From Deltaproteobacteria bacterium GWA2_54_12 (GTDB lineage: Bacteria > Desulfobacterota > GWC2-55-46), in contig MGPK01000030.1 in NCBI GenBank assembly GCA_001795535.1, forward strand, positions 1 to 43,107: DNA of 43,107 nucleotides. Reading direction: 5' to 3'. This document shows, in pieces, positions 8,615 through 24,394 of the stretch; positions within the stretch are counted from its first letter, which is position 1, and each line of letters opens with the position of its first letter. The notes beneath the pieces are model-generated. The model was not told the DNA's origin, made no database searches, and saw nothing but the letters and a program-made list of their open reading frames with translations. The translations under genes were made by a program, and so were the position numbers.

Positions 8615-8743
8615 GTCTGCATTATAAAGCAATAAATGTGCCATTAATAAATCCCCATTTAATTCAGACACTTGATTATCAAAGGCATCTTGAGAGTGTG
8701 TTATTATTGCAACTTCAGCCGCTGGATTCTCTTTTTTACAACA

Positions 8744-9033: not shown

Positions 9034-9474
9034 TTACGGCTTGCCAGCCCTTTTCCAGACCGTCTCAGCGGTTTTTTCAAGGGACCTGCCGCCGAAATAA
9101 AAGATTATGACTGTCTTCATGATCTCGCTATGTACTTCAGAGAGCGAGAACTCCCCGAAACCCAGATAAGGAGCCAGTACAGTCCAGACAAACAGGGAGA
9201 GCGCGGCGTAAGACCATATCGGCCTATGGGTGACGGTCAGGACCCTGGTCCAGGAAGGAGCCTGGGGCCAGGCCTCTTTTTCCGCGAGGGCGCGGGCGCT
9301 CTGTGAATCAACTGATGCTGCCTTGTACTCCTCGCTTGCGATACGCCGGGCCTCGAGCTTGAGCTCCTCCCTTTCCTTTTCACCAAGCGAAGTCGGAAGG
9401 AACCTGTCGGTAAGCCTGTCCACTACCTTGCCTACCGTGCTATCCAGTATGTCGGTTATTATCGGAGTTCCCAT
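9034..9474 (-). CDS. Holin, 3-TM GTA-type
   Basis: A 146-residue protein. The N-terminal half is amphipathic and charged (EKEREELKLEARRIASEEYK); the C-terminal half has hydrophobic segments at about 82-102 and 112-132 and an aromatic-rich segment at TVTHRPIWSYAALSLFVW. This layout matches the 3TM holin family often found in gene transfer agents and prophages. It would permeabilise the inner membrane for endolysin release. ATG 9474 with GAGG 5 nt upstream is preferred over the GTG at 9480. It is the last gene of the cluster. Confidence 0.75.
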   Translation of the reverse strand: MGTPIITDILDSTVGKVVDRLTDRFLPTSLGEKEREELKLEARRIASEEYKAASVDSQSARALAEKEAWPQAPSWTRVLTVTHRPIWSYAALSLFVWTVLAPYLGFGEFSLSEVHSEIMKTVIIFYFGGRSLEKTAETVWKRAGKP

Positions 9475-9481
9475 AGTCACC

Positions 9482-9661
9482 TCAAAGCCCCATATTCCTC
9501 AGTTCGTCTGAGATATCAAGAACGCGGTTTGAAGCGTCCTCAAGGGCTCCTTCCTCAATACAGGAGATAACGGACTGGAGCCCACCGCGGAGCTTATGCT
9601 GGAGATGTCGCCTCGCGTTTTCCGAGAGGTTTTTTATTTCCGTGACGGCGTTGTCCTCCAT
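9482..9661 (-). CDS. Small hypothetical protein of the lysis module (59 aa)
   Basis: An open frame from ATG 9661 to TGA 9482 encodes 59 residues beginning MEDNAVTEIKNLSENARRH and ending DELRNMGL. GGGAG lies 7 nt upstream. It fills the 190-nt space between endolysin and holin with almost no gap. It is mostly helical with no membrane segment or signal peptide. Position suggests a lysis-associated or regulatory role, but no family is recognised. Confidence 0.7.
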   Translation of the reverse strand: MEDNAVTEIKNLSENARRHLQHKLRGGLQSVISCIEEGALEDASNRVLDISDELRNMGL

Positions 9662-9664
9662 GTA

Positions 9665-10024
9665 TCACTCCCTGTATTCGAAATGGTTCGCGTCCCAGCC
9701 TGTTTTTGTCGCGTAATCCTGAGGCTCTACTCCAAACCTGCCGCCCCACCTGCCGCCAAGGGCTTCCCATTTTTCGCCAAGGGGCCTGTACAGGCTCCCG
9801 TCGGTCAGATATTTGCCGTCTTTAAACAGGTTGAAGTCCACCGCGAGCCTGTCCATGTGAGGAGAGTTCATGGTGCGGCTCTTGCCGGAGCGCACATAGA
9901 GCTTCTGCTGCTCTTCTGTCCTGAATGCTTCGCCGAAGCTCAGCTCATAGCCGCCGGCGTACGCCTGCCTTATACGCTCAGCCACCATCAAAGGGAACCT
10001 TCTCTGCATTTCCGAAAGCTTCAA
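9665..10024 (-). CDS. Endolysin, M15 family L,D/D,D-peptidase
   Basis: A 119-residue single-domain peptidase that would cut peptidoglycan cross-bridges or stem peptides. Zinc ligands fit the M15 pattern: His56 and Asp63 in SPHMDRLAVDFN and His114 in GWDANHFEYR. ELSFGEAFRTEEQQKLY is the typical M15 N-terminal strand. No signal peptide is present, so export would depend on the holin. The start is a TTG at 10024 with GGAGG 8 nt upstream; the nearby ATG is out of frame. Confidence 0.88.
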   Translation of the reverse strand: MKLSEMQRRFPLMVAERIRQAYAGGYELSFGEAFRTEEQQKLYVRSGKSRTMNSPHMDRLAVDFNLFKDGKYLTDGSLYRPLGEKWEALGGRWGGRFGVEPQDYATKTGWDANHFEYRE

Positions 10025-10036
10025 CGCACATCCCTC

Positions 10037-10264
10037 CTATTTGAGCGCCAGATGGCTGGCCAGATAAACATAAGCGTCCTTCAAGACCCAGAGCATCACC
10101 GCCCCGCATATCCACAGGAAAGTCCTCACGGCGTTTCTCTTGGTCCTCAGGAGGTCCTTTACCGCCTCCTGCTCAGCTGGAGAAAAGGCGCACGCGCCTA
10201 ACCTCGCTGCCAGCTTCTCGGCAATAAGCTCCGCGACCCGTTCCGTCTCTTTGACCTCCGGCAT
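10037..10264 (-). CDS. Small membrane protein of the lysis/tail region
   Basis: A 75-residue protein with a charged helical N-terminal region (KETERVAELIAEKLAARL) and one hydrophobic helix at about 50-68 (FLWICGAVMLWVLKDAYVYLA). It lies 12 nt upstream of the endolysin. A membrane-anchored accessory lysis or holin-regulating role is possible from position. No family is recognised. Confidence 0.65.
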   Translation of the reverse strand: MPEVKETERVAELIAEKLAARLGACAFSPAEQEAVKDLLRTKRNAVRTFLWICGAVMLWVLKDAYVYLASHLALK

Positions 10265-10267
10265 AGC

Positions 10268-10597
10268 CTACGCCTTTCTCCTTATGCCTTTAAAACTCAC
10301 GCCCCACTGGGCGACAACAGAGGCAAGGTCCACTTCGAAATTATCCATTACGAATCTGGTCCTGTCCGTCTCCTCGACTCTGAGCTGGCCGGTAACAGGG
10401 TCTATGACGGCCCTCGGACCGCTCCCGCTTTCAATCTCCACTGCCGTAAGCGTGTCAATATTGAGCCTCGCGTGCGTCAACCCCTGCGGTATGCCGGTGA
10501 ATGTGAGCATCGCCTCAGCCTGCCCGGCAGGGAGCGTATCCGCGCAGTAGCAGGCCATTATGTTTCCGGCATCATCGTGAAGGACTTCTATATACAT
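10268..10597 (-). CDS. Hypothetical phage-like protein (109 aa)
   Basis: Start ATG 10597 is chosen because GGAGG lies 7 nt upstream; an in-frame upstream start at 10639 would run into the preceding gene. The protein begins MYIEVLHDDAGNIMACYCAD, has a beta-rich composition and ends FKGIRRKA. MACYCADTLPAGQAEAML resembles small accessory proteins near tail fibres, but no function can be assigned. The stop is 3 nt from the next start. Confidence 0.65.
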   Translation of the reverse strand: MYIEVLHDDAGNIMACYCADTLPAGQAEAMLTFTGIPQGLTHARLNIDTLTAVEIESGSGPRAVIDPVTGQLRVEETDRTRFVMDNFEVDLASVVAQWGVSFKGIRRKA

Positions 10598-10608
10598 ATT
10601 TTCGCCTC

Positions 10609-11061
10609 CTAATTGGTGTGGTAATCCCAGTAAACGCAAAAGTATTCGCTGTTATCCAGCTGCGCCTGTACGCTCACTTCCCAGACCTCGCCCGTGGTGG
10701 ACAGGAGCTGGCGCGTCTGGAGGAGCAGCTGGACGGCATATATGGACCCTGTCTTGTTAAGGCTCGGCAGATGTGAGTATCTGGCCACCGGGATATAATA
10801 GCTGCCGCCTGTTGAAGCCCCGAAGCTTCCCCTCGCGAGTTTCAGCTTGGCGATCGAAACTACGGAATCGGCGAGCACAACGCTCTTGCTGTTTATGCCG
10901 TCATGGTCGTGGTCCACTGCCGGGGTGAAACTGTCCCCAAGCCACTCTTTGAGATGTACCAGGTTCTGCCTGACTCCCTCCATGAGGGTCGTATCGATCG
11001 GGCTTTCCGCATCAGTCTGCGCTGAAGTAATCGCGTTCCATGAAAATGTTGGCGCTGCCAT
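10609..11061 (-). CDS. Putative tail-fibre-associated structural protein (150 aa)
   Basis: The protein begins MAAPTFSWNAITSAQTD and contains VDHDHDGINSKSV (about 69-81), a motif recurrent in phage tail-fibre and virion-surface proteins. The C-terminal half is beta-rich (SIYAVQLLLQTRQLLS, EVWEVSVQAQLDNSEYF). AAGGAGA precedes ATG 11061. It follows the 572-residue tail protein by 9 nt. The role is inferred from motif and position. Confidence 0.6.
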   Translation of the reverse strand: MAAPTFSWNAITSAQTDAESPIDTTLMEGVRQNLVHLKEWLGDSFTPAVDHDHDGINSKSVVLADSVVSIAKLKLARGSFGASTGGSYYIPVARYSHLPSLNKTGSIYAVQLLLQTRQLLSTTGEVWEVSVQAQLDNSEYFCVYWDYHTN

Positions 11062-11070
11062 AAACTCTCC

Positions 11071-12789
11071 TTACCAGATATGATATCCGTCCACCCCGCC
11101 AGTGAGGTTGGAGGCGTTCCCCAGGTACCCGTATGCCCTCTGGGCCGATGAAGCGCCCTCGTAATCAGGCAGCCCGGCAGGGGCTATGAAGCCGTACCGC
11201 CTTGACATCTTTGTCTCGACGCCCTCCACCGAGACCCTGCCTGAAGCGAAATCCGGCCTGACGCTCGTCAGCATGACCCTGTTTCTAAACCAGCTTGCCG
11301 CGCCCTTGCCGCACGCCTCGTCGGTTGTGAGGTCTTTCAAGTCCGCGGGCTTCATGAAACTTGAAGCAGAGGCCATGCAGTTTATATCCACATCGAAGCT
11401 CATCGTCGCCACAGGGTCTCTGTACCGGTTGAGAAGCTTTCCCGCAAGCGTTGAGGCATGGTTGGCGCCCCCTATCGCGCTTATTTCCACTGTTGAAGCC
11501 GCATTTGCAGCCGGAAGAGTGGCGACGCTCACAAGCACCCTCACGAACCTGTTTTTATCGGCGTCAAAGACCTGATATTTACCGTCGCGCGTAAGCTTCA
11601 CGGACTCTCCAGCCGTCCCTCCAGGTGAAGTCCATGTCAATGATGAGGAGGCCTTGACGAACGATAACTGCCCTGTCCCCTCCCCGTTCGCCCTTGACGC
11701 GTGATAGACCTTGATCCCGCCCAGACCCGGCTCTTCCATGAATGTATGCGACCTTATCCACTTGCTCTTTATTGTCCTGGTCGAGGTCTCTTTCCACTGG
11801 GAAGCGCTCTGGGAGGCGGCGTCAGCAGCTATGACCGCTGACTCATAGTTCCCTTCCCTGTCTCCGCCTGACTCGTCGTAATCGTAGTAGACAACCACCC
11901 TGTTGCAGAAGCCGTCCCTGTAGCCTGACTTTACGGCGAAGGAGTCCTTCAAAAAGGTCCTGTCCGTCCATTCATCGACCGCCTGCCCTGGCACTGGCGG
12001 GGCAAAGACCTTGAACCCGATTTTTTCGCCATCATGTACGATGAAGGAATTAGATTCCACCTGGAGTTCGTTAAGGAACTGGTTTGCCTCCAGCGGTTCC
12101 GTAAGTATCCTGTCAAACTTCCACGCTCCGAGCCATCTGTCCCTTTCCAAGGCAAAGACCTCGAGGTCGACCAGAGAAGCGTCTACGCCGAGCCTGGAGA
12201 CGATGATGTCAGCCATGATGTCCGCAGGGTTCATCGCCCTGTATTCTATGAAAGCGGTCCTCGACTCGGTTTCAGCCGGGATCCTGGCGGACGCTTCTTT
12301 TAAATCATCGGCAATTACGACCGTGAGCTCATCGCCTCTTCTGGACCAGTCAAGGACCTTGCCGGTAAATGTCGGGGCGTAATCGACCCAGGTGAAACCA
12401 TGAGCTATGAAACCGTCCTTGCGCTTGACGCGCCTGTTCTTCAGGTACTCGTCGCTTACAAGCGCCGTGAAATTTTCCTTTCCGGTGATCACGACAGTAA
12501 ACTGCCCTCTCGTGGTATAACCTGAGCGCACATCTATCCTGTTCTGAAGCGAAGAGACTGTCTTGAGCGCCGGGATCACAAACGGGAGCTCGTCGCTCCC
12601 TGCCGGGCGCAAGTAGCCATCAGCGCAATAAGCCCCATCAGCCCTGAAGAGGGTCGGCGGCAGCGCGTTCCTTCCATGAAAGCCGAACCTTACGGGCCCG
12701 TTGTCCAGTTCGAACTCGACAACGACATTGGAAGTATTTGAGCATCTCCCGAGTTCTTCCAGGAATCTGCGGCTAAGAACCATCCCCAT
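11071..12789 (-). CDS. Putative tail hub/tip protein (572 aa)
   Basis: A large beta-rich protein beginning MGMVLSRRFLEELGRCSNT with AAGGAG 9 nt upstream. It has mixed beta strands throughout, a central FVIPALKTVSSLQNRIDVRSG segment, and ends GYLGNASNLTGGVDGYHIW. No enzymatic motif is seen. Size and position (after tape measure, Dit-like and spike genes, before lysis) suit a baseplate hub or tip protein. The exact family is not recognised, so the role is inferred from context. Confidence 0.6.
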   Translation of the reverse strand: MGMVLSRRFLEELGRCSNTSNVVVEFELDNGPVRFGFHGRNALPPTLFRADGAYCADGYLRPAGSDELPFVIPALKTVSSLQNRIDVRSGYTTRGQFTVVITGKENFTALVSDEYLKNRRVKRKDGFIAHGFTWVDYAPTFTGKVLDWSRRGDELTVVIADDLKEASARIPAETESRTAFIEYRAMNPADIMADIIVSRLGVDASLVDLEVFALERDRWLGAWKFDRILTEPLEANQFLNELQVESNSFIVHDGEKIGFKVFAPPVPGQAVDEWTDRTFLKDSFAVKSGYRDGFCNRVVVYYDYDESGGDREGNYESAVIAADAASQSASQWKETSTRTIKSKWIRSHTFMEEPGLGGIKVYHASRANGEGTGQLSFVKASSSLTWTSPGGTAGESVKLTRDGKYQVFDADKNRFVRVLVSVATLPAANAASTVEISAIGGANHASTLAGKLLNRYRDPVATMSFDVDINCMASASSFMKPADLKDLTTDEACGKGAASWFRNRVMLTSVRPDFASGRVSVEGVETKMSRRYGFIAPAGLPDYEGASSAQRAYGYLGNASNLTGGVDGYHIW

Positions 12790-12855
12790 CGAATCACGCT
12801 CCTTTTGATGACCAGCCTTGCGATCTTTTCGCGGGCGTCATGTCGCTGCGCTTTA

Positions 12856-14268
12856 TCATGGCGTATTATCGTGGACCTGGAAGTACCAGTCCGTCCCGTC
12901 AAAGACCCCGGTCATCACATCGCCGATTGCCCCCACAAAGTCCGCACCGCCATTACCATTGAGGTTCGTTCCGGTAAAATCGATGGTGGTGTTGCTGTCA
13001 ACGAAGAGTATGGTTATCTCCTGTCCGGCTACCCCATCATCAAACGCAGTAATGGTCGTTGGATTTACCGATTGAGTCTTGAAGGACTGCCTTTTTCCGC
13101 CAACCGCGACCGAAGGCGTGGCGTCGTCCAGGTCCAGGTTCGGCATTCTGGGGTCGATGGTGCTGGCCGCCACGATGGTATCGTAGGCCGTGTCCTCGAC
13201 ATTGTAAGTCCCAAGTTCCACGCGCTTTGTATTGACAATACAAAAGGCCGTATGCCCTCCAGCGTCGTCACCTGCGAACCTGAGCTTATCCATACTGAGG
13301 CCGTCCACCTGGTCTGTATAAACAGCAACGGTGTTCTCGTACATCGTAAGGTCTTCGAGTCTTATATTGTGGATATTGTATGGCGTTGCGGTAGTAACCC
13401 TCACGCCGTTAACTGATGTGTTTTCTATAAGGGTATTTTCAATTCTCACGCTCCTGTAGAAATCCTGTACCCTTATCCCATAATCATGGTTGCCAGCCGC
13501 ACACTGTCTTATTGTGAACTGGTCGCCCCTGTTGCCCATGGCCGCCAGCAGAAAACCCGTCCCACTGTACTGGGCAAGGCAGTTGTCATAGGTGATGTGC
13601 GTTGTATGGACAGGGTCTGCGGTCGTGGCCCCTAATTTGAAGCAGGCTTCGCCCTTCTTTCCGGCTCCGGCAGAGCCCATACGAATGTAGCAGTCCCTTA
13701 TGGCCATCTGATATGCGTGGTTGAGCCACAGGCCGACAGCCGCGGAGTTGTAAAAGCCATACATGGTAACCCGCTCAAAGAGCCACTGGGTTATGAACTC
13801 GGCGTAGATGCCGCCGAGGGCCGTCGTGGAGTTGTTGCCGTCTATTGAAAGATCAGTTATCGATGAGTACGGGAGCCAACCGCCGCTTGCCCCGTCCGAG
13901 CTGTTGATGAGCCAGTTTGTCGAGCTGACGGGTATCTTCAGAATGGTATTGGCCCGGCCCGCGCCCCTGATATTGCGATATCCCCGCACATTCAGGTTCT
14001 CACAGAGCCATATCCCGGCAGGAATGAATATCCTCTTGCCCGCGGTTATGCAGGCTTGTATCTCAGTTGAGTAATCAACCGAGCCGTTGGTTACAAAACC
14101 AACAGGTAAGAACTCGCGCAGGTCAAGCTCCTTGTAACCAGTCAGGTTATACTTGTGCGTCCCGTCGTTGTTGTGCTCGACAAGGGAAAGACGGTTGAGC
14201 GTATCAGCCTTTACAGGATGCCCGGTCCCTACCATCTCTTCGCTGAATTGTATACGCAGGTCTGCCAT
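12856..14268 (-). CDS. Beta-helix tailspike-like protein (470 aa)
   Basis: The N-terminal 35 residues end in VEHNNDGTHKYNLTGY, a head-domain motif of phage tail proteins. Residues about 50-380 look like a right-handed parallel beta-helix: RIFIPAGIWLCENLNVRGYR followed by repeated short strands with aligned Asn, Ile and Gly (SVRIENTLIENTSVNGVRV). Such folds bind or cleave surface polysaccharide in tailspikes and pectate-lyase-like enzymes. Catalytic residues cannot be assigned by eye. The C-terminal part (FKTQSVNPTTITAFDDG) is a separate beta module. GAGGAG precedes ATG 14268. Confidence 0.75.
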   Translation of the reverse strand: MADLRIQFSEEMVGTGHPVKADTLNRLSLVEHNNDGTHKYNLTGYKELDLREFLPVGFVTNGSVDYSTEIQACITAGKRIFIPAGIWLCENLNVRGYRNIRGAGRANTILKIPVSSTNWLINSSDGASGGWLPYSSITDLSIDGNNSTTALGGIYAEFITQWLFERVTMYGFYNSAAVGLWLNHAYQMAIRDCYIRMGSAGAGKKGEACFKLGATTADPVHTTHITYDNCLAQYSGTGFLLAAMGNRGDQFTIRQCAAGNHDYGIRVQDFYRSVRIENTLIENTSVNGVRVTTATPYNIHNIRLEDLTMYENTVAVYTDQVDGLSMDKLRFAGDDAGGHTAFCIVNTKRVELGTYNVEDTAYDTIVAASTIDPRMPNLDLDDATPSVAVGGKRQSFKTQSVNPTTITAFDDGVAGQEITILFVDSNTTIDFTGTNLNGNGGADFVGAIGDVMTGVFDGTDWYFQVHDNTP

Positions 14269-14280
14269 GTTGACTCCTCT

Positions 14281-15054
14281 TTATTCCTTCCGGCCTGTAA
14301 GCGCTATCACGATATCCCTGGCGGCCCCTCCAGATTTGAGCGGGTTTGAAAACCTCGGCTCTGGCCTCATCAGAAAGACATCCTCAGGGTGCCCTGAATT
14401 CTCCCACGCCACAAAAAAATTCCTTGTGCCGCTGCCTTCCCACCATTCCTTGACCTTCCCGTAAAGCGCAGCGTCCGCGTCGTCGAACCTTATTGTCATG
14501 GACCTTTCGATATACTTAGCGTGAGCGCCGGCGAGATATCCGCCATTGCTCAGATTGACCACGGCCTTGACCTCCTGCTCGTTCGGGTCGAATGACGCGC
14601 TAGCGTAATCGAGCTCTGTCCTTAATCCCCATGCCGCTATATAGATAAACGGGGCTATGACCGTGCCTTCAAGCGCAAGCCGCCAGTACCTGTAAGCCCC
14701 GGGGCTCGTGAACTCTTTTACGAAAGCCCTGTCAGAGGCAGGGATGAATGGCGTGAAGGCATCAAGGTACGATTCTCCATCGTTTGAATACTGGAGTTTG
14801 ACGAGCGCGTTGATGGAAGCAAAGTTATGTCCTGAAACCGCGAGATAGTCCGCCTCATGGGAGTTTCCTTCACCGGAGTCGTGCGTTATGTAATGCGGCC
14901 CCATTCCCAAGGCTGCCTGCCACAGGTTCGTCTCGAGCATGTTGCAGATATTCGCTACGCTCGTGCGCTCGAAAGTCGAGCTCGCTTCAAGCGCGGAGCC
15001 CTGGGAGCCTGAAAACGACTTCCAATAGAATTTTATTTTTGCCCAGTCTGCCAT
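14281..15054 (-). CDS. Putative distal tail or tail-tip protein with discoidin-like domain (257 aa)
   Basis: Residues about 50-140 resemble a galactose-binding/F5-8C fold: ADYLAVSGHNFASINALVKL, QYSNDGESYLD and PGAYRYWRLALEG are characteristic strands. The C-terminal part (KYIERSMTIRFDDADAALYG, RNFFVAWENSGHPEDVF) resembles tail-tip proteins. It lies directly after the tape measure gene, where siphophages encode the distal tail protein. The function is inferred from position plus this fold. Confidence 0.6.
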   Translation of the reverse strand: MADWAKIKFYWKSFSGSQGSALEASSTFERTSVANICNMLETNLWQAALGMGPHYITHDSGEGNSHEADYLAVSGHNFASINALVKLQYSNDGESYLDAFTPFIPASDRAFVKEFTSPGAYRYWRLALEGTVIAPFIYIAAWGLRTELDYASASFDPNEQEVKAVVNLSNGGYLAGAHAKYIERSMTIRFDDADAALYGKVKEWWEGSGTRNFFVAWENSGHPEDVFLMRPEPRFSNPLKSGGAARDIVIALTGRKE

Positions 15055-15065
15055 TACCTGCCTCG

Positions 15066-15911
15066 CTAAGCCATTTTTGTTATGTTCACGGCGATGTTCC
15101 TGTCACCGACTTCCCTCAAGGCCGGCACGATGTTGTCTTCCACGATCTTCTGCCAGTTCTGCTCAGAAAGAGGGTTGTATATCTGCACCGTTATGGACTG
15201 CGAAGGCCTTGCGTCCTCGACCCTTGTAGGCACCGGGTACGCGCCTGGCGAGCCACCCGAGTATTGCGGGTTCGCCCTTCCTCCTGAATCTATGGAGCTG
15301 GTCGCGCCCTCCGGCCTCGTATTCCTTATCTGCTCCACCCTCGCTAGTCCTGCCGCGATGGCGGCAGCTGCGGCTGCCGCGCCAAGGGCTGGGCCCACGA
15401 CCGGTATCGGGGCGAGAGATGCGAAAGCGCCCTGCGCTGCTCTGTAGGTCTGTATCACGGTCTCTGCCACGGCAAAGGCTTTCATGGATTCGAACATGGC
15501 CCTGTGCCTGCTTCCGGTCGCGATGAAAAGGTTCTGGAGCGTGTTTGACATAAGAGAGGCTCCTGCTTCCGCGTACCCGGCCCTCTTTGCCCAGCTGGCC
15601 TTCTCGAGTTCATCGAGTTCCGCGATGCGCGCCTCCTCAAACGCCCTCTCCTGAGCGGCGTGCCTTGACCGCTCATCCATATAAAGGGCTTGCCCATCCC
15701 TGAGCTTGGCGACCCTGTTACTGCCGCCTGTGTCGGTTGCGGCAAAGGCAAGCCTTTCAATGTCCTTCTTCATTTCATTGAAGGCCCGGCTCACGCTGGT
15801 CGTATATTTAGCAGTAGAAGCTATCGACAGAGAGCTCAGCCTCTGCAAACCCTCTTCCGCCGCCGCTGCCGCGCTTCTGGCCCTGCCTTCGTACATATCC
15901 CGTTCAGCCAT
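15066..15911 (-). CDS. Short tail tape measure protein (281 aa)
   Basis: Tape measure proteins set tail length and line the tail tube. Residues 1-130 are helical and charged. Residues about 160-200 contain AFASLAPIPVVGPALGAAAA, a hydrophobic Ala/Gly segment typical of tape measure C-termini, followed by LARVEQIRNTRPEGA. At 281 residues it is far shorter than most phage tape measures and close to those of gene transfer agents. The start ATG overlaps the stop of the frameshifted tail chaperone. GGGGAG precedes it. Confidence 0.75.
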   Translation of the reverse strand: MAERDMYEGRARSAAAAAEEGLQRLSSLSIASTAKYTTSVSRAFNEMKKDIERLAFAATDTGGSNRVAKLRDGQALYMDERSRHAAQERAFEEARIAELDELEKASWAKRAGYAEAGASLMSNTLQNLFIATGSRHRAMFESMKAFAVAETVIQTYRAAQGAFASLAPIPVVGPALGAAAAAAAIAAGLARVEQIRNTRPEGATSSIDSGGRANPQYSGGSPGAYPVPTRVEDARPSQSITVQIYNPLSEQNWQKIVEDNIVPALREVGDRNIAVNITKMA

Positions 15912-16310
15912 TTTTCTCCCCGGCTAATCTCGCCCTTTCTGACTGGTATATCTCAAAGGCCTCCACGGCCCAGCAGGGTTGGTCTGCCAGGCCTCCGTCA
16001 AAGTAGAGCCGCCCTGAGCTTTCCATCATGAATACCGTCCTCATCATCCTGAAGCTCTCCTCGCTTATATAGCTGAGGGGGCATTCGTAGAGCCTCAGGT
16101 CCCCGAGGCTTATGACCTTCTCTGAGCCGCTTTCTTTGATCTCTTCATTTATCTCAGGGTCATAGGACGCGACAGCCCTGGCTGCCTCGGAGAGCCCTTT
16201 GAAGTTGGAGCAGTTACGCTCCTTCTTATCTGATTCAGTGCAGTTCGAACAATTAAACGGGCTCCCGCTGCCCCTCAGCGCCCAGCGGAAGCCCGCTGTC
16301 AGTTTTTTCT
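15904..16310 (-). CDS. Tail assembly chaperone, -1 frameshift extension (T part of GT)
   Basis: This frame is open for 132 codons after the slippery site to a TGA at 15904 and has no ATG, GTG or TTG near its beginning, so it can only be reached by ribosomal frameshifting from the upstream gene. The fusion would have 256 residues. The extension has Cys clusters (FNCSNCTESDKKERNCSN, then YECPLSYIS) and ends RARLAGEKNG, overlapping the tape measure start by 8 nt. The layout equals lambda G-GT, whose T domain binds the tape measure and recruits tail tube subunits. Confidence 0.88.
16258..16308 (-). promoter_or_regulatory. Programmed -1 ribosomal frameshift signal
   Basis: On the minus strand the heptamer A AAA AAC (16308-16302) is in the zero frame as AGA AAA AAC, directly followed by the TGA stop (16301-16299). 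After a 6-nt spacer a 13-bp stem forms between 16295-16283 and 16270-16258 (CGGGCTTCCGCTG with CAGCGGGAGCCCG, one T-G pair) with a 12-nt loop. All three canonical elements are present. A competing shorter 6-bp hairpin (16283-16298) shares the 5' arm. Confidence 0.9.
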
Positions 16311-16673
16311 CTGTCCGTCCGTGAGGCGTGAGGCGGATTCCATCGCCCTTATGACCTCGAGCACCAGGTCGGTATCCGCGGTATCGAAGAACTCGCCAGG
16401 GCTCGTGACCTTCATGGAGCCTACAAAATAGCCGCTTATGTTCTCAACATTTTCGACAAACTGCTTTCGCTGGACGTGCTGGGTAAGCTCGGCCACCTTC
16501 ACGGAATCGGCAACCCCTCTTGTCCTCGCGGCCAGAAGCCTCGAATATTCCTGGACCCTCGAGTACGGCACGAACCTGAGGCTCACGACGCACGGGTCAG
16601 AACTTTCCCTGTTCCCGCCGTACTCAGGTATGTAGTCCACTATGCTTTCCTTATCGAAGCTGACTATAGACAT
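16299..16673 (-). CDS. Tail assembly chaperone, zero-frame product (G-like)
   Basis: A 124-residue protein starting at ATG 16673 behind AGGAGG and ending LTDGQRKN. It has a beta-rich beginning (MSIVSFDKESIVDYIP) and a helical middle (VQEYSRLLAARTRGVADSVKV). It lies between the tail tube and tape measure genes, the standard place for the tail chaperone. Most ribosomes should stop here; a fraction shift to make the longer GT form. Confidence 0.85.
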   Translation of the reverse strand: MSIVSFDKESIVDYIPEYGGNRESSDPCVVSLRFVPYSRVQEYSRLLAARTRGVADSVKVAELTQHVQRKQFVENVENISGYFVGSMKVTSPGEFFDTADTDLVLEVIRAMESASRLTDGQRKN

Positions 16674-16698
16674 CCGTCCTCCTGAATATCTTCTATTT

Positions 16699-17787
16699 TC
16701 AAACAGCAGGCACAGTATTAACGAGCATGACCCCTGCCATGTAGCCGGTCACCGCGTTGTAGAGCCCTTCATACTTGAGGGTTATCATCGGCTCCTTATC
16801 GAGCCTGTACTCAGGCTCGCCCCCGGTGCGCTGAAGCCTCGGGAGGTCGATAAAGAGCGCGTGGTTGGCCCCTGCGCCTGCCTGAGTGCCTGTGTCCCAG
16901 TGCAAAAACAGGTTCGACGATTCAGGTGAGGCAAGCCAGCTCCTGAACTCGGCTGCCGATGAAAAGCCACTCAAAGGGTCTTCCCAGTCGAGCGTCATCT
17001 CAGCCGTGACTTTATATTGGCCCATCCTCGTTTTGTCCGGGTAATCGACCCCGGAAAGCCGCATGGCGTCCTCAATGCCGTTCTCCATCTTGACGCTGAC
17101 CTTGTCAGGCTTTACCCTGGTAGCGCCTTCAAATGAAAAACCTGTGAAAGCAGGAGCAGTGCCAACCCTTGTTACAGGCCCGGTATATATATTCAAGGCC
17201 TTGTAATCGCACCGTAGCGGCTCGGCTGCGAACACAACGCCTCCGATCTCGTTTTCGGTGTCATCCCTCTTCTGGCCTGACAACTCAACTGAAAGCTTGA
17301 GCGCTGAGCCCGCGTCCTGCTCGAAGGCAATCGACTTGACCCTCCCGCCAGCGTAGGGCCAGTTTTTAACTGTCGTACCCTCGTTCAGGTTGAGGTTGAG
17401 GGTAAGCCCCTTGTTGCCGAGGTTCGCCTCTGAAAAAGGGTCTCCCACGGGCGACATCATGTGATAGTACTGGCCTGTGGCTCCATTCTGTCCTGAGTCA
17501 CACCTCCCGAAAAAGTGCTTCAGGACTGTGCCAACAAGCCCGGCTGACGAGCCTGCCTCAGTATAGAACGGGGTCTCGATGGAAGCGGTCCACCTCTGCC
17601 CCATGCGGACAACGGCCGTATCACCCTTTGCCGCCTCCTCACCCCTGAACTCTTTTCTCCTGCGGTCGTCAAATTCCATCTTCGGTATCGCAGGGTTTAA
17701 GAGCGGAACAAAACCGACGGTCCCTGATTCCTTTACTCCTCTGACCGCCTCTTCTCCAATCGCGAGATAGAGCCTGTTTGTCGACAT
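16699..17787 (-). CDS. Major tail tube protein
   Basis: A 362-residue protein, starting at ATG 17787 with GGGAGG 7 nt upstream (a TTG at 17790 is also in frame). Alternating short beta strands, GRVKSIAFEQDAGSALKLSV and GQYKVTAEMTLDWEDPL match the tail tube family, and the gene sits just before the tail chaperone. A long non-contractile tail is implied since no sheath gene is adjacent. The C-terminal segment (MITLKYEGLYNAVTGYMAG) is typical of tail tube subunits. Confidence 0.8.
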   Translation of the reverse strand: MSTNRLYLAIGEEAVRGVKESGTVGFVPLLNPAIPKMEFDDRRRKEFRGEEAAKGDTAVVRMGQRWTASIETPFYTEAGSSAGLVGTVLKHFFGRCDSGQNGATGQYYHMMSPVGDPFSEANLGNKGLTLNLNLNEGTTVKNWPYAGGRVKSIAFEQDAGSALKLSVELSGQKRDDTENEIGGVVFAAEPLRCDYKALNIYTGPVTRVGTAPAFTGFSFEGATRVKPDKVSVKMENGIEDAMRLSGVDYPDKTRMGQYKVTAEMTLDWEDPLSGFSSAAEFRSWLASPESSNLFLHWDTGTQAGAGANHALFIDLPRLQRTGGEPEYRLDKEPMITLKYEGLYNAVTGYMAGVMLVNTVPAV

Positions 17788-17805
17788 CAATCGTCCTCCC
17801 GGGAT

Positions 17806-18234
17806 TTACGATTCCCTGTATCTTACTTTTACATCCATCGATATCTTTGAAAACCCGCCATTGCCCTCGATGCTGAAGCCGGGTATCCTTACGCCGGTGA
17901 CAGGCTTTGCCGAGGCAAGCCCACCACTGTTGAGCGCTCCGTCAGTCATGGCCTCCCTTGCCTGGTGCGCCCACATCTGTTCATCAGTCAGGGCCGGGCA
18001 ATCAGGCTGCTCTGGCAAAATTATTTTTATTGTGAAGCTGGCCTCAGAGTAGCTGGGCCGCTCCCCGAAGGGGCTTTCAAAAGACTCTCCGTTGTAGGAG
18101 ACCTGGGCGAGAGGCATCAGCCCTGCCGGAAGCGAGCCACTTGAGTCGAGCGCTTTCCTGGTAACATTGAGCCCCTCATTTTTCAGGGCAGTTTCAATGT
18201 TCCCGGTTATGGCCGATATTGTTTCGTAGCCCAT
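17806..18234 (-). CDS. Putative tail terminator/neck protein (142 aa)
   Basis: A 142-residue alpha/beta protein beginning MGYETISAITGNIETALKNE, a helix typical of tail completion proteins, followed by beta strands (SYSEASFTIKIILPEQP) and ending FSKISMDVKVRYRES. It lies between a connector-like gene, with which it shares a TAATG stop-start, and the tail tube gene, where tail terminators are normally encoded. The assignment is from position and fold pattern. Confidence 0.6.
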   Translation of the reverse strand: MGYETISAITGNIETALKNEGLNVTRKALDSSGSLPAGLMPLAQVSYNGESFESPFGERPSYSEASFTIKIILPEQPDCPALTDEQMWAHQAREAMTDGALNSGGLASAKPVTGVRIPGFSIEGNGGFSKISMDVKVRYRES

Positions 18235-19118
18235 TATCGCCTGCCTGCTTTCAGGGAGCCAAAAGCCAGTTCACTTTCAGCACCGGTTATCGAGCCGTCC
18301 CCTGAATAATCGTATTTAAGCCTCAGGCCCGAATACGCCCGGACGGCCTTGCCTTCGTACTCTTTCCAAAGGTCCCACCATATCCCCTTGTTCTCGGAGG
18401 CAAGCCCCTTGCACGCCTCGGCGACCGACAGGAATATATGGGCCTCTCGCAAGTCCTGGGAATCGAGCACAAGGTGGGGCCTTTTACCAAGGCGCTTGAG
18501 TTCGTCTTCGAGCTTCTCGAAGGCCCTGTTAATCTCCCTTGAGAACGACCTGGTCAACACATACTTATCTCCTGCGGCGACCGCTGACGAAAAAGCCTCG
18601 ACTGTTAGCGTACCGGAAGACGCTTCAAAGTCCCTTATCTCCCTCGCCTCGCCCTTTGACGGGCAGGAGGCCACGCCCCCGGTAAAATATCCGTCTCCAT
18701 ACCTTTTCAGGCGGCTGTCGATGATTGTAGTCTCGCTGCCTCCCTCGGCTGTGCCGGAGACGCTCCAGCCCCTATCGCGGAGCTGCGGCAGCTCAGAGAA
18801 TATGTCGTCGTCGGTAATGACCTTGGCCAGACGCGAGCGCACGACATCATAGAACAGGACAGCGTAATGCGTCTTTGATGCAAGGCTGTACTCTACTTCA
18901 GCCTTGTAGTCGAGCCCGGGCACAGAGTTGTCTGGCGCGGAAAGCTCGAAAGAAAGAAGCCCATCAATGCCTATCGTCATCGCGGTCCTGGCTACCAGCA
19001 GCGCGCCGCCGGGCATGAATATTTTTATAAAAGCTGACTCAGGCACTACCTTCAGGTTGCTCTCGTATATGTATGTCCTGAAGGTATCAATCGTCTCGGC
19101 CAGGAATTGCTGTTTCAT
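18234..19118 (-). CDS. Head-tail region protein with C-terminal EF-hand-like loop (294 aa)
   Basis: The protein begins MKQQFLAETIDTFRTYIYES behind GGAGGAGA. Beta-rich N-terminal and helical C-terminal halves are seen, the latter with REINRAFEKLEDELKRLGK. Near the C-terminus DYSGDGSITGAE (about 270-281) fits a 12-residue EF-hand/dockerin loop, so calcium binding is possible. It has been placed among connector genes by position. No family is confidently recognised. Confidence 0.6.
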   Translation of the reverse strand: MKQQFLAETIDTFRTYIYESNLKVVPESAFIKIFMPGGALLVARTAMTIGIDGLLSFELSAPDNSVPGLDYKAEVEYSLASKTHYAVLFYDVVRSRLAKVITDDDIFSELPQLRDRGWSVSGTAEGGSETTIIDSRLKRYGDGYFTGGVASCPSKGEAREIRDFEASSGTLTVEAFSSAVAAGDKYVLTRSFSREINRAFEKLEDELKRLGKRPHLVLDSQDLREAHIFLSVAEACKGLASENKGIWWDLWKEYEGKAVRAYSGLRLKYDYSGDGSITGAESELAFGSLKAGRR

Positions 19119-19145
19119 CTTTCTCCTCCGGCTTTACAGGGCGGT

Positions 19146-19304
19146 CTACTTCCTGTTTTTCCTGTTGTCTGTCTCTTCAGCGGTCGCTCTAGCCTTTCGC
19201 TCGATCTCTCTCGCTTCGCCCTTATCCGGCAGCTTGCCGGTTCGCTTGAGCCGTTCGTCATGAATTCTTTTTATGAGCCGCTCTACGGCCTGTCTCTCTT
19301 TCAA
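19146..19304 (-). CDS. Small basic helical protein (52 aa), TTG start
   Basis: From TTG 19304 (GGGAG 6 nt upstream) to TAG 19146 the frame encodes 52 residues, MKERQAVERLIKRIHDERLK..., rich in Arg, Lys and Glu and almost all helical. It fills the 200-nt space between two cluster genes. The same frame is open for a further 93 nt upstream, inside the 3' end of the previous gene, with plausible protein sequence (NGDTVRVYYAGAAKVHVIRE) but no standard start codon. The true N-terminus is therefore uncertain. Confidence 0.5.
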   Translation of the reverse strand: MKERQAVERLIKRIHDERLKRTGKLPDKGEAREIERKARATAEETDNRKNRK

Positions 19305-19318
19305 TTCCCGCTCCCTGA

Positions 19319-19696
19319 TTACATGAACTTTTGCAGCTCCGGCGTAATATACTCGGACGGTATCGCCATTGGCTCCGGCAGGAAGGGCGCGTCAGGAAAG
19401 ACCACGCCCTGCTTCTGCAACCCCCTGTGCGATCTCAAACAGGCCTCCATGCGCCGAAGCAGGACGCTGTCCCATTTAAGCGGCACCCATTTATCTCGCC
19501 AGCACCTTATAGCCGCTTCCTTGAGGTCGGTTACCTTTACCGTCTGTATGGATGTTTTTTCATGACAACGCGTGAGCTGCCCGTTCCACATCCAGAACTC
19601 GCCTAAGTGTTCGCCCTGCCATGACACCGCCGCGAACCTGTTTGCGGCAAGAGGGGTAAATCCTTTTTTTAATAATGAGCCGATATCTATCGCCAT
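19319..19696 (-). CDS. Hypothetical head/connector protein (125 aa)
   Basis: A 125-residue protein starting MAIDIGSLLKKGFTPLAANR at ATG 19696. It contains FAAVSWQGEHLGEFWMW and WVPLKWDSVLLRRMEACLR. No family is recognised. It lies between the major capsid gene and the small basic ORF. There is no Shine-Dalgarno sequence: the start is preceded by CTAAAAAA and a 12-bp hairpin, which sets it apart from the other cluster genes. Confidence 0.65.
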   Translation of the reverse strand: MAIDIGSLLKKGFTPLAANRFAAVSWQGEHLGEFWMWNGQLTRCHEKTSIQTVKVTDLKEAAIRCWRDKWVPLKWDSVLLRRMEACLRSHRGLQKQGVVFPDAPFLPEPMAIPSEYITPELQKFM

Positions 19697-19706
19697 TTTT
19701 TTAGTT

Positions 19707-19740
19707 GCCGGGGAGGGGCCGCAAACAACCCCTCCCCGGC
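19707..19740 (-). other. Perfect 12-bp hairpin between capsid and connector genes
   Basis: GCCGGGGAGGGG (19707-19718) pairs exactly with CCCCTCCCCGGC (19729-19740) around a 10-nt loop. On the transcribed (minus) strand the stem is followed by AACTAAAAAAATGG, so it lacks the T run of a terminator; a T run (CCCTTTTTTA) lies on the plus-strand side. In the sense direction it could stabilise the capsid mRNA or limit translation of the following SD-less gene. Confidence 0.7.
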
Positions 19741-19748
19741 TCCCTTTT

Positions 19749-20612
19749 TTATTCGTGATTGGTTATTATCTTGACTCCGCCGCTCGCGGCAGCGTTCACG
19801 CAGCCATGTCCGTACACGGCAGTGACCACGATCTCGGTGGCACGCAGCGACGCGTCTCTCTGGAACTCGGTCTTTGCCCCGGTCTTTAGGACATAGGCAA
19901 GGCCGGACTGGTTGCCAAGAGGCATCATCACGCCCATTCTATCGGCGTCCACATTCACGGAGGCGCAGTTTGTGGACTGCACAATGTCTACCCCGTAAAG
20001 CGTGCCGAGAGAACCCAGGTCAGCTGCCGGGGTTGAGGGGCCGCCCCAGACAGCGCCGGTAGAAGCGGCTATCGCGCGCCTCAGGTTGCTCACCTGGTAA
20101 GGGTGAAGCACCGCCACGAACGGGCCCTTTCCGTTGCCGAGCTCGAGCGTATAGATGGCCGCGAGAAAATCGTCCTCGGTCATATCAACGCCCGAAGTCC
20201 CGACGGAATTAGTAAAGCTCGACGCGCTCGCCAGGAGGTCCGCGTCTATCTTGTTGGCCAGGGCCTTGCCAAGCTCGGCCGCGAAAGGCTCGAGCCCGCC
20301 CAGGCCAGCGCCGTTCAGGAGCATGTCCGTGACGGTGATCATTATTCCGGCCTCGTCGGCGGTCAGCAGAGTCGAGGCGGTGTTCACCGAAGTGTTGCTC
20401 ATGTCGGTGGCTTCTGTAAGGTCAGAGGCCGTAAGGAGCGGCCACTTCGGGAACTCGACGCTCAGCGTGGAATCCGAGCTTATGTCCGCCACCCTCACGA
20501 GCGGCGGGAGCACGGCCTCCGCGTACGCGGCGTCTATTACAAGTCTTGAGACTATTTCAGCGGCTATAAGCTCGCCTGCGGAACCTGCCGCGGTAGTAAC
20601 TTCATTTGCCAT
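19749..20612 (-). CDS. Major capsid protein, HK97 fold
   Basis: A 287-residue protein behind an AGGAGG site. It shows the HK97-type segments: an N-terminal helix (GELIAAEIVSRLVIDAAYAE), the E-loop/P-domain region (STLSVEFPKWPL), and the C-terminal domain with VLHPYQVSNLRRAIA, GTLYGVDIVQSTNC and MMPLGNQSGLAYVLKTGA. There is no long N-terminal delta domain, consistent with the separate scaffold gene upstream. Confidence 0.88.
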   Translation of the reverse strand: MANEVTTAAGSAGELIAAEIVSRLVIDAAYAEAVLPPLVRVADISSDSTLSVEFPKWPLLTASDLTEATDMSNTSVNTASTLLTADEAGIMITVTDMLLNGAGLGGLEPFAAELGKALANKIDADLLASASSFTNSVGTSGVDMTEDDFLAAIYTLELGNGKGPFVAVLHPYQVSNLRRAIAASTGAVWGGPSTPAADLGSLGTLYGVDIVQSTNCASVNVDADRMGVMMPLGNQSGLAYVLKTGAKTEFQRDASLRATEIVVTAVYGHGCVNAAASGGVKIITNHE

Positions 20613-20647
20613 ATTTCTTTATTCCTCCTGTCAATTGAGCCCGCTTC

Positions 20648-21292
20648 TCAAGCGGACTGGAACTTTCTTTTGCGGGCCTCCAGGAAGGGGTTCTTTACAT
20701 CCCTGAACCTGTAGTTCTGGCCCGCGGCACCCTGCACATCAACGCCTTCCCTCATGAGCCTGTCAAGCTCCTCTCTCGGCATGCTGCGCCAGGAGGCAGG
20801 GTCTGAAAGGTCGTACCTGGCCGGGGTAGAAGAGAACCTCGCGCCAAGCGACCCTGCGCCGGATGAGGCCGCCCCCCTCAGGTGATGGGGCCGTTCGCTC
20901 AGCCACGAGTCAACGAACTCTTCTATGCTCATGGGCTGTCCCGAATTGTTCACTCTCGCGGCCCCGGACTGGCCGATTACCTTCAAAGTACCGTCCTCGT
21001 CTGCCCTCACCCTGTGCTTCAGCAGTTCGGTCACTTCCTCCGCGTCAACTACGCTGTGGCGGGAAATCGCTCTCAGAAGGCTCGCGCTCTTTCTGTCTTC
21101 CCTGAGCCTTTCGACTTCGGCCTTGAGCTTATCAACATCCGCACCAGAACCAGACGCCCTCTGGGCCTTTGTGTACGCTTTCCTGTACGCTTCGTCTATA
21201 AGCTCCTGCACTCTGGCCTGCTGCTCCGGAAGAAAGCTCACCTTTCCCTCTTCCCTGAATGCGTCATTTCCCGTTTTAAGTTCGTCAACCAT
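20648..21292 (-). CDS. Capsid scaffolding-like protein (214 aa)
   Basis: A charged helical protein directly upstream of the major capsid gene. Residues about 45-70 form a likely coiled coil (DVDKLKAEVERLREDRKSAS). The C-terminal part is polar and Arg-rich (PREELDRLMREGVD, ENPFLEARKRKFQSA-type ending), where scaffolds bind capsid. AAGGAGG precedes ATG 21292. No protease motif is visible. Size, charge and position support a scaffold. Confidence 0.75.
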   Translation of the reverse strand: MVDELKTGNDAFREEGKVSFLPEQQARVQELIDEAYRKAYTKAQRASGSGADVDKLKAEVERLREDRKSASLLRAISRHSVVDAEEVTELLKHRVRADEDGTLKVIGQSGAARVNNSGQPMSIEEFVDSWLSERPHHLRGAASSGAGSLGARFSSTPARYDLSDPASWRSMPREELDRLMREGVDVQGAAGQNYRFRDVKNPFLEARKRKFQSA

Positions 21293-21371
21293 TTTAAAAA
21301 GTCCTCCTTTTAATTCCCCCTCATTCCCTTCGCGCCGCCGCCGGGGTAGCAGGCGGCAGGTTTAAGCCCTT

Positions 21372-22736
21372 TTAAAGCCGCCCCGCCGCGCTGCCTGCCT
21401 CTATCTCCTCGCCTATTCTCGCGAGGGTGGCGTCGTCAGTCTTGGGCAGCACCGCCCTCACTATGCGCCTTTGAAGCTCTTTATCGAAGGTAGCCGACGC
21501 TACGGCCGCGCCTCTTGCGCTGATGACGCTCTGCAAGTCCCTTTCAATGTCCCGTATCGAAAAATCGTCCGGGTAGTCTATCCTGCCGTCAAAGACCTTT
21601 CCTTCCCACTTGGCCCACAGTTCCAGGACCCTCTGCTCGGCCTGCTCGACATTGTCAGCCTTCTCGCTCAAGGTGGAGTAGAGTTGCTGGTACTCTAGCT
21701 CGAGGGCTACCCCTGATTTAGCCGACGAAGCCTCAGAAGCCTTAACCCCTCCGAGCTTGGCTATTCTGTATATCTCTTCTATGTCATGGCGCACCCACTC
21801 GCGTATCTCGGAGAGCGACGAATGCGGCGCTTCCAGCCAGAACGGCCTCGCGTTGGGTTCCGCCGGGTCGAATTGAAGGATGTTCCTCGGGCCTACCTCC
21901 CGCTCCTCTGAGCCGCCCCTTGAATATGGCACCGCCAGCATGGGGAAGGCCGTGTTCTCGATTATCTCCCTGGCGTCTGAACAGAGGTAATAGATGTTCC
22001 TGTTGATATCCGCTATGTCCTGGATGTCGGAGATGCCGACCATCCTGGTGCCTGAACGCTTGTTGTACAGGTTCACCATCGGGACTTCTCCGAGCCCGTG
22101 CCACCCGGCGTCGGCAAGCCTCACCTCTCCCGTGGAATTCACTATCTGCCAGAGCTCCCATCCGTCCCTGTTCCATACCCTGTAAGTATCCGGCGCTTCC
22201 CTTACCTTCACCGAATCGAGCACGACACGACCCGAATAGGGGAGCCTCGCGAAAGACCAGTCCAGGAGGTTTTCAGGGGTCACGAGAGAGACATACGGCC
22301 TTATGCCGTACTCTTCGGCCTCGGCCCTTGTAACCGGCAGCACCTGTGGCTTGTCCACGATGATGGATACCCTGCCGTAGACTGACGCGAACCTCTGCGC
22401 GTCCCGCATGAAATGCCTGAAGGTGTTCCCCTCGAGGTCGGCGTCCGTCAGGAAGTGGCCGAAGAGGTTGTCGCCCGCAAGTGAGCCGTGCTCCCTTACG
22501 GCATCCTTCCTGAAAAGGTGCGACACGAATATGTCGACCACAGGCCCGCAGTAGTTGTAGTAATAGCTCGTGGCCTTTCTGCGGGCGTAATTGGCCGTGC
22601 TCTCGAAGGGATGCTGCAGGAGGTAGTTGCCCTCCTTGTACGACTTCCCTCCGAAGTACGAGCGGATGTGGAACAGCCATTCGTCTCTTAAGCTGTCGTA
22701 TAGCGGGTGCGTGCTCTCGAGTTCCTCTCGGGTCAT
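21372..22736 (-). CDS. Portal protein
   Basis: A 454-residue protein at the usual portal position between large terminase and scaffold. Conserved portal features are YPLVTPENLLDW-like text here as SLVTPENLLDWSFARL, IQDIADINRNIYYLCSDARE (stem helix) and a C-terminal helical crown with AKSGVALELEYQQLYSTL and QRVLELWAKWEG. The DUF4055-type portal family is the best match recalled. GGAGG precedes ATG 22736. It follows terL by 16 nt. Confidence 0.82.
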   Translation of the reverse strand: MTREELESTHPLYDSLRDEWLFHIRSYFGGKSYKEGNYLLQHPFESTANYARRKATSYYYNYCGPVVDIFVSHLFRKDAVREHGSLAGDNLFGHFLTDADLEGNTFRHFMRDAQRFASVYGRVSIIVDKPQVLPVTRAEAEEYGIRPYVSLVTPENLLDWSFARLPYSGRVVLDSVKVREAPDTYRVWNRDGWELWQIVNSTGEVRLADAGWHGLGEVPMVNLYNKRSGTRMVGISDIQDIADINRNIYYLCSDAREIIENTAFPMLAVPYSRGGSEEREVGPRNILQFDPAEPNARPFWLEAPHSSLSEIREWVRHDIEEIYRIAKLGGVKASEASSAKSGVALELEYQQLYSTLSEKADNVEQAEQRVLELWAKWEGKVFDGRIDYPDDFSIRDIERDLQSVISARGAAVASATFDKELQRRIVRAVLPKTDDATLARIGEEIEAGSAAGRL

Positions 22737-22752
22737 CTGTCCTCCAGCTGTG

Positions 22753-24021
22753 TTATTTGTAGAAACGCCTTGCCGGGTCCGGCTTATCTATCCTCAACGG
22801 GAACTCTTGTTCCACGAAGTACCCCAGCGCGTCCGTCGCGTGAGTCCGCTCAATGTTTGACTTGTCGAGGCCAGTCCCGCCCGTGCACCATTCGATTGTC
22901 TCGAAATCCTTTTTCAAGTGGGCGCACCTGGGGTGGTGGAAAAGCCTCGCCTGGCCGTCAACATTTTCAAGCATGGCATTGACCGAGTTCACCCTGTCGC
23001 GCACAGCCGGGTTGGCCCTGCCGATCCTCTGATCGCGCAAGCCCAGCTCAAAGAGGATGGCGTAATCGCTCTTTCCGGCCGTTGACCTGTTCATCCCGGC
23101 GGCGTCTCCATAAACCGCTATCCCCTGTTTGTGAGATCCGTACTTCGAAAGCACCGTCTTGCCCATCTCCATCGTATTCGTGTCCTTCAAGGCTATCTCG
23201 TCCACGACCCGCACCTGGCCTCCGTCCGTCTGGACTATCTCCCAGACGCTGAGGCCCACATTGAAATCGCAGCAGACAAAGAGCTTGAGCCTGTCGTTCA
23301 CCTTGATGGAGCCGTCCTCGTGCCTTTTGGAATCGTAAGCGTAATACGCGCGCCCTGTAGACCCCTCGAAACTCGCCTCGAATTCCTGCCTGAAAGTCCT
23401 CGGGTCAAGCACCCTCTTCGCGGCTTCTATCTCACGCGCCGGAAGCACCGCCGAAGAGTTCCACTTGTACAGGCCCCAGTCCTCATCCATGCCAGCCCCG
23501 GCATAGTCAGCGAGGTCTTTATAGTGATTCAACCCCTCCGGCACGCCGACGAACCAGCACCAACCCGCCCTGTCCGCGAGCGCTGGCCTAATATTTTCGG
23601 TCCAGGCACTGGGCTTCATGTTCGCGTACTCGTCGAGCACGCCCCCGTCCCACGGCGTCCCCTCGATGCGCTCCGGCCTGTCCATGCCGAGCACCCATAA
23701 CTCGCTTCCGTACCGGGTCATTATGCAAAGGTCTGTCTCGTAGACTTTTTTTACCCACTTTTTGGGGACAAGGGCCTTAAGGTCGTTCCAGTAGACCCTT
23801 TTGGCCTGCTCCCTTGTGGGCGCGGCGGCGAAGTAGCGCGGATCGCTCCACTTCTTTTTTTCCGGAAGGCCTATTACAAGCCGCCTTTTGGAAATCTCCG
23901 TCTTGCCGCTCCTTCTTCCAGCAGGCACCACCGCGAACCTTTTTCCCTCAGTCCAGAGCCTCGTCTGCTCCGGATGGGGCAGTAACGCGACCCATCTCGG
24001 CGGCAATAAGGTCTGCTTCAT
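22753..24021 (-). CDS. Terminase large subunit (packaging motor)
   Basis: A 422-residue motor that packages DNA into proheads. Walker A is AGRRSGKT (34-41) and Walker B is GGVLDEYANM (Asp130-Glu131). The RNase H-fold nuclease has Asp252 in FVCCDFNVGLSVW, Asp306 in AVYGDAAGM and Asp398 in RTHATDALGYF. All catalytic acidic residues appear intact, so the packaging enzyme may be functional. The start lies 74 nt inside terS. AAGGGGGAGG is immediately upstream. Confidence 0.93.
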   Translation of the reverse strand: MKQTLLPPRWVALLPHPEQTRLWTEGKRFAVVPAGRRSGKTEISKRRLVIGLPEKKKWSDPRYFAAAPTREQAKRVYWNDLKALVPKKWVKKVYETDLCIMTRYGSELWVLGMDRPERIEGTPWDGGVLDEYANMKPSAWTENIRPALADRAGWCWFVGVPEGLNHYKDLADYAGAGMDEDWGLYKWNSSAVLPAREIEAAKRVLDPRTFRQEFEASFEGSTGRAYYAYDSKRHEDGSIKVNDRLKLFVCCDFNVGLSVWEIVQTDGGQVRVVDEIALKDTNTMEMGKTVLSKYGSHKQGIAVYGDAAGMNRSTAGKSDYAILFELGLRDQRIGRANPAVRDRVNSVNAMLENVDGQARLFHHPRCAHLKKDFETIEWCTGGTGLDKSNIERTHATDALGYFVEQEFPLRIDKPDPARRFYK

Positions 24022-24394
24022 CCTCCCCCTTTTCCGCCGCGGCCTCCTCGAGGCCCAGCTCGAGCCTCTTGCTCCTTATCATGCTCGAGATGACCTCTCC
24101 GGCCATCTTCGCGACCTTTAATTCTTCCAAGCCCTGCTTGATATCTTTTGTCTTGAGCCCCCTGGCAAGCCTTCTTTCGACGCCCTTCCAGTAGCTCCTG
24201 TGCCGATCCGGAAGAAGGTCCATGCGCTTTTCAGGAATTATTTTGCGCTTCTCGCCGGATTTGCGTTTCCAGCCTTCCTCCCTGGCCTTTCTGCGTATGC
24301 TGTCCTTGTGACATCCGTATTTTTCACCAAGCGCCTTCAGCGCATCCTGGCCTGACTCGAATTCATGTCTTAATCCATCCCAATCGATCCCCAC
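23948..24394 (-). CDS. Terminase small subunit
   Basis: A 148-residue DNA-recognition subunit. The N-terminal helix-turn-helix is ALKALGEKYGCHKDSIRRKA (about 18-37), followed by REEGWKRKSG and a long charged helical region that would form the oligomer (RRLARGLKTKDIKQGLEEL). The start is a GTG at 24394. It overlaps terL by 74 nt, suggesting coupling. Alternative reading as a general HTH regulator is unlikely because of the terL neighbour. Confidence 0.82.
   Translation of the reverse strand: MGIDWDGLRHEFESGQDALKALGEKYGCHKDSIRRKAREEGWKRKSGEKRKIIPEKRMDLLPDRHRSYWKGVERRLARGLKTKDIKQGLEELKVAKMAGEVISSMIRSKRLELGLEEAAAEKGEDEADLIAAEMGRVTAPSGADEALD

Follow-up and report, generated by a model that had tools for sequence, protein, structure and literature searches.

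A conserved signal for programmed −1 frameshifting in the predicted tail assembly chaperone gene of a putative deltaproteobacterial gene transfer agent

Known recoding systems and the gene in the window

The closest known pair of tail assembly chaperones, G and GT, is that of phage lambda, in which the slip site is GGGAAAG, the G:GT ratio is important and the tube protein is bound by T. In bacterial −1 signals more generally, an upstream Shine–Dalgarno (SD)-like stimulator is optional. Frameshifting of the G/GT type is common among long-tailed phages (PMC5009743), and the heptamer A_AAA_AAC, which shifts in Escherichia coli even without stimulators, is used in one proven insertion sequence case (PMC4066793). 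Phage-type head and tail genes are also found in gene transfer agents, for which PMC9662315 provides both criteria and a classification. The gene described here lies on the minus strand of the window (the whole stretch of DNA that was analysed, 43,107 nt) and, judging from its sequence, almost certainly encodes a phage-type tail assembly chaperone made as two products by programmed −1 ribosomal frameshifting. Its features are the following.

16299–16673, minus strand: G (predicted tail assembly chaperone), a zero-frame open reading frame of 124 aa that ends AGA AAA AAC TGA
16314–16322, minus strand: position of the SD-like stimulator, placed by anti-SD pairing in homologues, most of which have GAGGG or GAAGG; degenerate in the window (ACGGACGGA)
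16302–16308, minus strand: slippery heptamer A AAA AAC, with P-site Lys and A-site Asn, recognised by its conservation in homologues
16299–16301, minus strand: zero-frame stop TGA, read from the sequence
16296–16301, minus strand: 6-nt spacer TGACAG, read from the sequence
16258–16295, minus strand: stem-loop with arms 16295–16283 and 16270–16258 and a 12-nt loop (16282–16271), from folding and covariation
15904–16302, minus strand: −1 frame extension T, 132 residues, first codon CTG at 16302, from the reading frame and its conservation
15904–16673, minus strand: predicted GT fusion product, 256 aa, from the sequence

A sequence-only reading of the window had already proposed a programmed frameshift at this point, and its description of the signal, for which it named no strand, is borne out: A AAA AAC (16308–16302) is in frame and directly followed by TGA, a 13-bp stem begins 6 nt after the heptamer, and the −1 frame, which is open from 16443, continues for 132 codons past the heptamer to a TGA at 15906–15904, so that T is overlapped at its end by the tape-measure ATG at 15911 and a fusion would have the 256 residues given for it (124 of G and 132 added). 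The same reading held that the −1 frame has no usual start codon. This is true of roughly the first 85 codons of the extension, where there is no ATG, GTG or TTG, but not further on, since four ATG codons (16047, 16044, 16029 and 16026) lie past its most conserved part. The string AAAAAAC occurs 12 times on the two strands of the window, against 4.5 occurrences expected.

The comparison with lambda, to which the pair had also been likened, holds only for gene order (tail tube, G/GT, tape measure, as in lambda-type chaperone loci) and for the logic of the arrangement; no similarity of sequence or fold to lambda G or T (Xu, Hendrix and Duda 2004, cited by PMC5009743) could be detected. The locus further differs from lambda in its slip site, in the invariant four-Cys set of T and in belonging to a cluster that looks domesticated. 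In form the signal also resembles those of dnaX, IS911 and other members of the IS3 family, with which it shares an A-rich heptamer, a hairpin a few nucleotides downstream and, in most homologues, an SD-like element 6–17 nt upstream (spacing rule of PMC4066793). Unlike in these systems, it would serve the ratio of two tail proteins, and its SD-like part is weak in the window.

In the proposed mechanism, most ribosomes would stop at the TGA and release G. The downstream stem would make a minority of them pause while the Lys codon occupies the P site and the Asn codon the A site, and in most relatives the SD-like sequence ahead of the heptamer would assist. The two tRNAs would then slip jointly, from AAA-AAC to AAA-AAA, and continued translation would give GT. 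By analogy with lambda, G may coat the tape measure protein and the T domain of GT may bring in subunits of the tail tube; this domain is probably stabilised by metal bound to four invariant Cys. Comparison of sequences establishes the overlapping frames, the invariant slip site, the covarying stem and the selection on both halves; ribosome slippage, the G:GT ratio, the chaperone role and metal binding are inferred.

Conservation of the recoding signal

A homologue search covered 147 related genomes, 33 of which have a homologue, nearly always as two overlapping frames. A AAA AAC is found in the same phase, with T following in the −1 frame, in all 35 non-redundant loci of the host order that have the extension; these are related sequences, and the locus counts are therefore not counts of independent events. 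The heptamer conservation that the sequence-only reading had named as a check is thus seen throughout these loci. The codon preceding AAA varies (AGA, CGA, ATA or GTA, encoding Arg, Ile or Val) and its final base is always A, and within G the excess of synonymous conservation is greatest at codons 123 and 124 (AAA and AAC); elsewhere in these genes Lys is encoded 295 times by AAG versus 123 times by AAA. In the host-order loci, the length of the G frame up to the heptamer is constant in all but one, and the stop after it is TGA, TAA or, one codon further, TAG. Conservation of phase in 35 of 35 loci excludes a chance origin of the signal, and since divergence is broad, down to 33% identity in G, inheritance alone is an insufficient reason for an invariant heptamer.

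The signal is also present in distant viral contigs with G proteins of ~29–46% identity, in which the matching position again has a heptamer in register. It is mostly A AAA AAC, while three loci use another slippery sequence: A AAU UUC in L078, A AAU UUU overlapping U UUU UUG in L079, and G GGA AAC in L091. Runs of A can slip in transcription, and RNA polymerase slippage on the A6 run present in most loci could add or remove a base, a mixed mRNA population then yielding the fusion. This is, however, very improbable because some loci carry a heptamer of the 3+3 type: at the sites of L078 (AAATTTC) and L091 (GGGAAAC) no run exceeds three bases, yet the X XXY YYZ pattern and T are both kept. Moreover, the run is never longer than A6 in the host-order loci read, and polymerase slippage has no need of a conserved stem at a spacing typical of ribosomal frameshifting.

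A different possibility is that T is a separate gene, with a start of its own or one coupled to G, so that no frameshift is needed. The close overlap of the zero-frame stop and the −1 frame does resemble that of coupled genes, but no ATG, GTG or TTG stands ahead of the conserved start of T, and the CTG right after the slip site is replaced by CTA or CTC in several homologues. The zero-frame stop, in addition, follows the heptamer at distances from nil to more than 130 nt while the heptamer stays put, and the invariance of the heptamer would be left unexplained. A separate T gene is accordingly an exceedingly remote prospect, and no homologue was seen in which the two frames are separate genes.

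Programmed frameshifting is also consistent with the joint absence of signal and extension. Three G homologues (L037, L039/L068 and L077) have neither the heptamer nor T, and a search for T in these loci with a T profile and tblastn gave no credible match. T is thus absent, by sequence, wherever the heptamer is absent, and no case of a lost heptamer with a retained extension, which the sequence-only reading had listed as refuting it, was seen. In L068 (10001–10387) and L077 (9511–9891), the G homologue lies 3′ of a 619-aa open reading frame with tape-measure similarity and, as noted by eye, near a tyrosine-recombinase-like open reading frame; these are probably mobile relatives with another arrangement.

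The downstream stem has 13 bp in the window, including one G-U (15 bp in RNAfold), with a folding z of −2.7 versus dinucleotide shuffles, 2 of 200 shuffles being equally stable. In an alignment of 35 loci (34 from the host order and one viral contig), 89.7% of stem cells are paired, as against 38–56% when the stem is slid, both sides have changed in six of the 13 pairs, and the covariation score was reached by none of 500 shuffles; RNAalifold independently yields an 11-bp consensus stem. The compensatory changes in homologues, which had been named as a check, thus exist, for example C-G to G-C in L025 and L035 and, at a different pair, in L019, or C-G to U-A in L013 and L031. Folding z averages −3.0 over the host-order loci and −2.0 over the distant loci, with ~0 in control windows. 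The distant loci L086, L087 and L091 also carry a stem at this place, though one whose sequence is very different, and folding found no strong stem in L078, L079 and L084.

A third element, common to most homologues, had been missed in the sequence-only reading. Pairing with the anti-SD sequence is strongest 10–14 nt before the heptamer (mean −6.6 kcal/mol) and reaches −4 kcal/mol or below in 91% of loci of the order and 94% of distant loci, with a background of 15–18%. Under a stricter test, which combined the published motif list with the spacing of PMC4066793, an SD motif is present in 26 of 35 order loci and 15 of 16 distant loci, for backgrounds of 32% and 21%. The window and its nearest relative, with the sequence GGACGGAC at this place, fail this test, and the SD-like element was therefore rejected as a universal feature. 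Part of the signal could reflect protein conservation because most loci share Glu-Gly at this position; L083, L084 and L091 keep the SD-like sequence despite other encoded residues.

The G and T proteins

Both frames are under purifying selection, with dN/dS of 0.03–0.06 for G and 0.12–0.18 for T. The invariant residues of T include four Cys (18, 21, 31 and 74 of T), through which it probably binds metal, and Trp111; its fold is predicted with confidence (AF2 pLDDT 93), that of G less well (pLDDT 81). The window is a contig of a metagenome bin (79.6% complete, 77 contigs), in which an assembly error, a sequencing indel or a decaying pseudogene might mimic two overlapping frames, but the same junction recurs in dozens of independent assemblies and selection acts on both halves. 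The homologues refute such an artefact, which has a practically negligible probability.

Neither Pfam nor PHROGs contains the protein family of G and T, whose members gave only sub-threshold hits there and matched no chaperone family. Two of these hits for T/G, Fer4_12 and a C2HC zinc finger, were rejected as family assignments, only the Cys pattern being noted. Foldseek found no significant match for either model in the PDB nor for T in BFVD, where there were only weak hits to unnamed viral proteins, and the GT fusion has no match in 50,697 phage records. The name ‘tail chaperone’ consequently follows from gene order (tube, G/T, tape measure) together with the frameshift, as in lambda (PMC5009743). 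T would be missed by annotation pipelines without frameshift models. The mechanism itself is textbook and the unusual part is that a probably domesticated element keeps it, in a case that comparison resolves unusually well: slip sites are interchangeable, the stem covaries, most homologues have an SD-like helper, and signal and extension are absent together.

Chromosomal setting of the cluster

The G/GT gene is part of a 16-kb cluster of head, tail and lysis genes.

9034–25382, minus strand: whole head–tail–lysis cluster, in the same order and site in relatives
7694–8671: lpxC, flanking the cluster
9034–10024, minus strand: lysis module of an M15-type endolysin and a GTA_holin_3TM-like holin (PHROG endolysin 7.2e-12, holin 1e-7)
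15066–15911, minus strand: short tape measure protein, 281 aa (PHROG tape-measure matches, best 7.6e-14)
16699–17790, minus strand: tail tube protein (Pfam Phage_tube_2, 8.4e-9)
19749–20612, minus strand: major capsid protein (PHROG 544, 2.9e-16)
20648–21292, minus strand: scaffolding protein (PHROG 206, 1.3e-11)
21372–22736, minus strand: portal protein (PHROG 145, 6.2e-76)
22753–24021, minus strand: large terminase (PHROG 2, 7.3e-29)
23948–24394, minus strand: small terminase (PHROG 1206, 2.3e-6)
24981–25382, minus strand: sigma-70 region-4-like gene, situated between terS and ychF and retained alongside the cluster in relatives
25574–26662: ychF, flanking the cluster

Tail tip and fibre genes are also present, the match of the holin to Pfam GTA_holin_3TM (1.9e-4) is just below the cut-off of that family, and the sigma-70 region-4-like gene is a candidate regulator of the cluster. 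The cluster occupies the same site in the window and in all eight long-contig relatives examined, although some contigs end before the outermost genes, in the order nuo-ispE-prs-rplY-pth-hppA-ychF, cluster, lpxC-phoH-ybeY-lnt-prfB. Further contigs match on one flank, and the loci with the cluster at the ychF–lpxC site include L041, L042 and L098–L113. Among 48 genomes from the order, 32 yielded capsid genes, with 73–94% identity of the major capsid protein among carriers. The site is truly empty in L174 (genome G029) and holds a remnant (holin, terL fragment, terS and sigma) in L175 (G035), which represent loss or decay. Genome G007 was rejected as another cluster-less case, since sigma, terS, terL and portal genes are present on the ychF side, near where a contig ends.

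The traits by which gene transfer agents are recognised in PMC9662315 are, as far as sequence can reveal them, present or nearly so: the cluster has Caudoviricete-type head and tail genes and sits at a fixed host locus, with no integrase or replication match in the window cluster. Like the agents treated there (RcGTA-type and others), it is a fixed head–tail cluster with apparently largely vertical inheritance, a short tape measure and a GTA_holin_3TM-like holin, whereas it belongs to another bacterial lineage, has a Phage_capsid_4-like capsid and forms one complete cluster that includes the lysis genes. We therefore regard a vertically inherited gene transfer agent as the fairly probable setting. 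Alternatively, the cluster might be a prophage, ordinary or defective, that favours this site for integration. This would be in line with the empty site in G029 and with the related G/GT genes known from viral contigs of IMG/VR and from second positions within the same genomes. However, among the Pfam and PHROG matches in the 16-kb cluster of the window there is none to an integrase, a repressor or a replication gene, and every long-contig carrier examined, throughout the order, has identical gene order and flanks. Phylogenetic comparisons bear on both views. Distances for capsid, G and T correlate with those for RpoB (Mantel r 0.80, with none of 5000 permutations as high), and the element tree shares 8 of 18 splits with the RpoB tree (chance 0.14, at most 3 in 2000), but the two trees conflict at some supported nodes, as a prophage might lead one to expect. 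Taken with the purifying selection on all cluster genes tested, these findings make a prophage rather unlikely.

The intact recoding signal and low dN/dS indicate that this phage-type cluster still serves to make tails, and thereby support a new lineage of gene transfer agents. It is somewhat probable that the uncultured deltaproteobacterial order carries, between ychF and lpxC, an undescribed and independently domesticated gene transfer agent, inherited largely vertically, with a recoding signal under selection and a new Cys4-type T; no description of the cluster as a gene transfer agent was found in the open-access literature. If so, selection would have kept a recoding signal across the order in a gene for a cellular, non-selfish particle. 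Outside the chaperone region, L106 (G019) and L110–L111 (G014) have a variable insert between o19319 and o18234, lacking in the window, which encodes spike-like proteins with Mtd_N, GDSL lipase and LamG domains.
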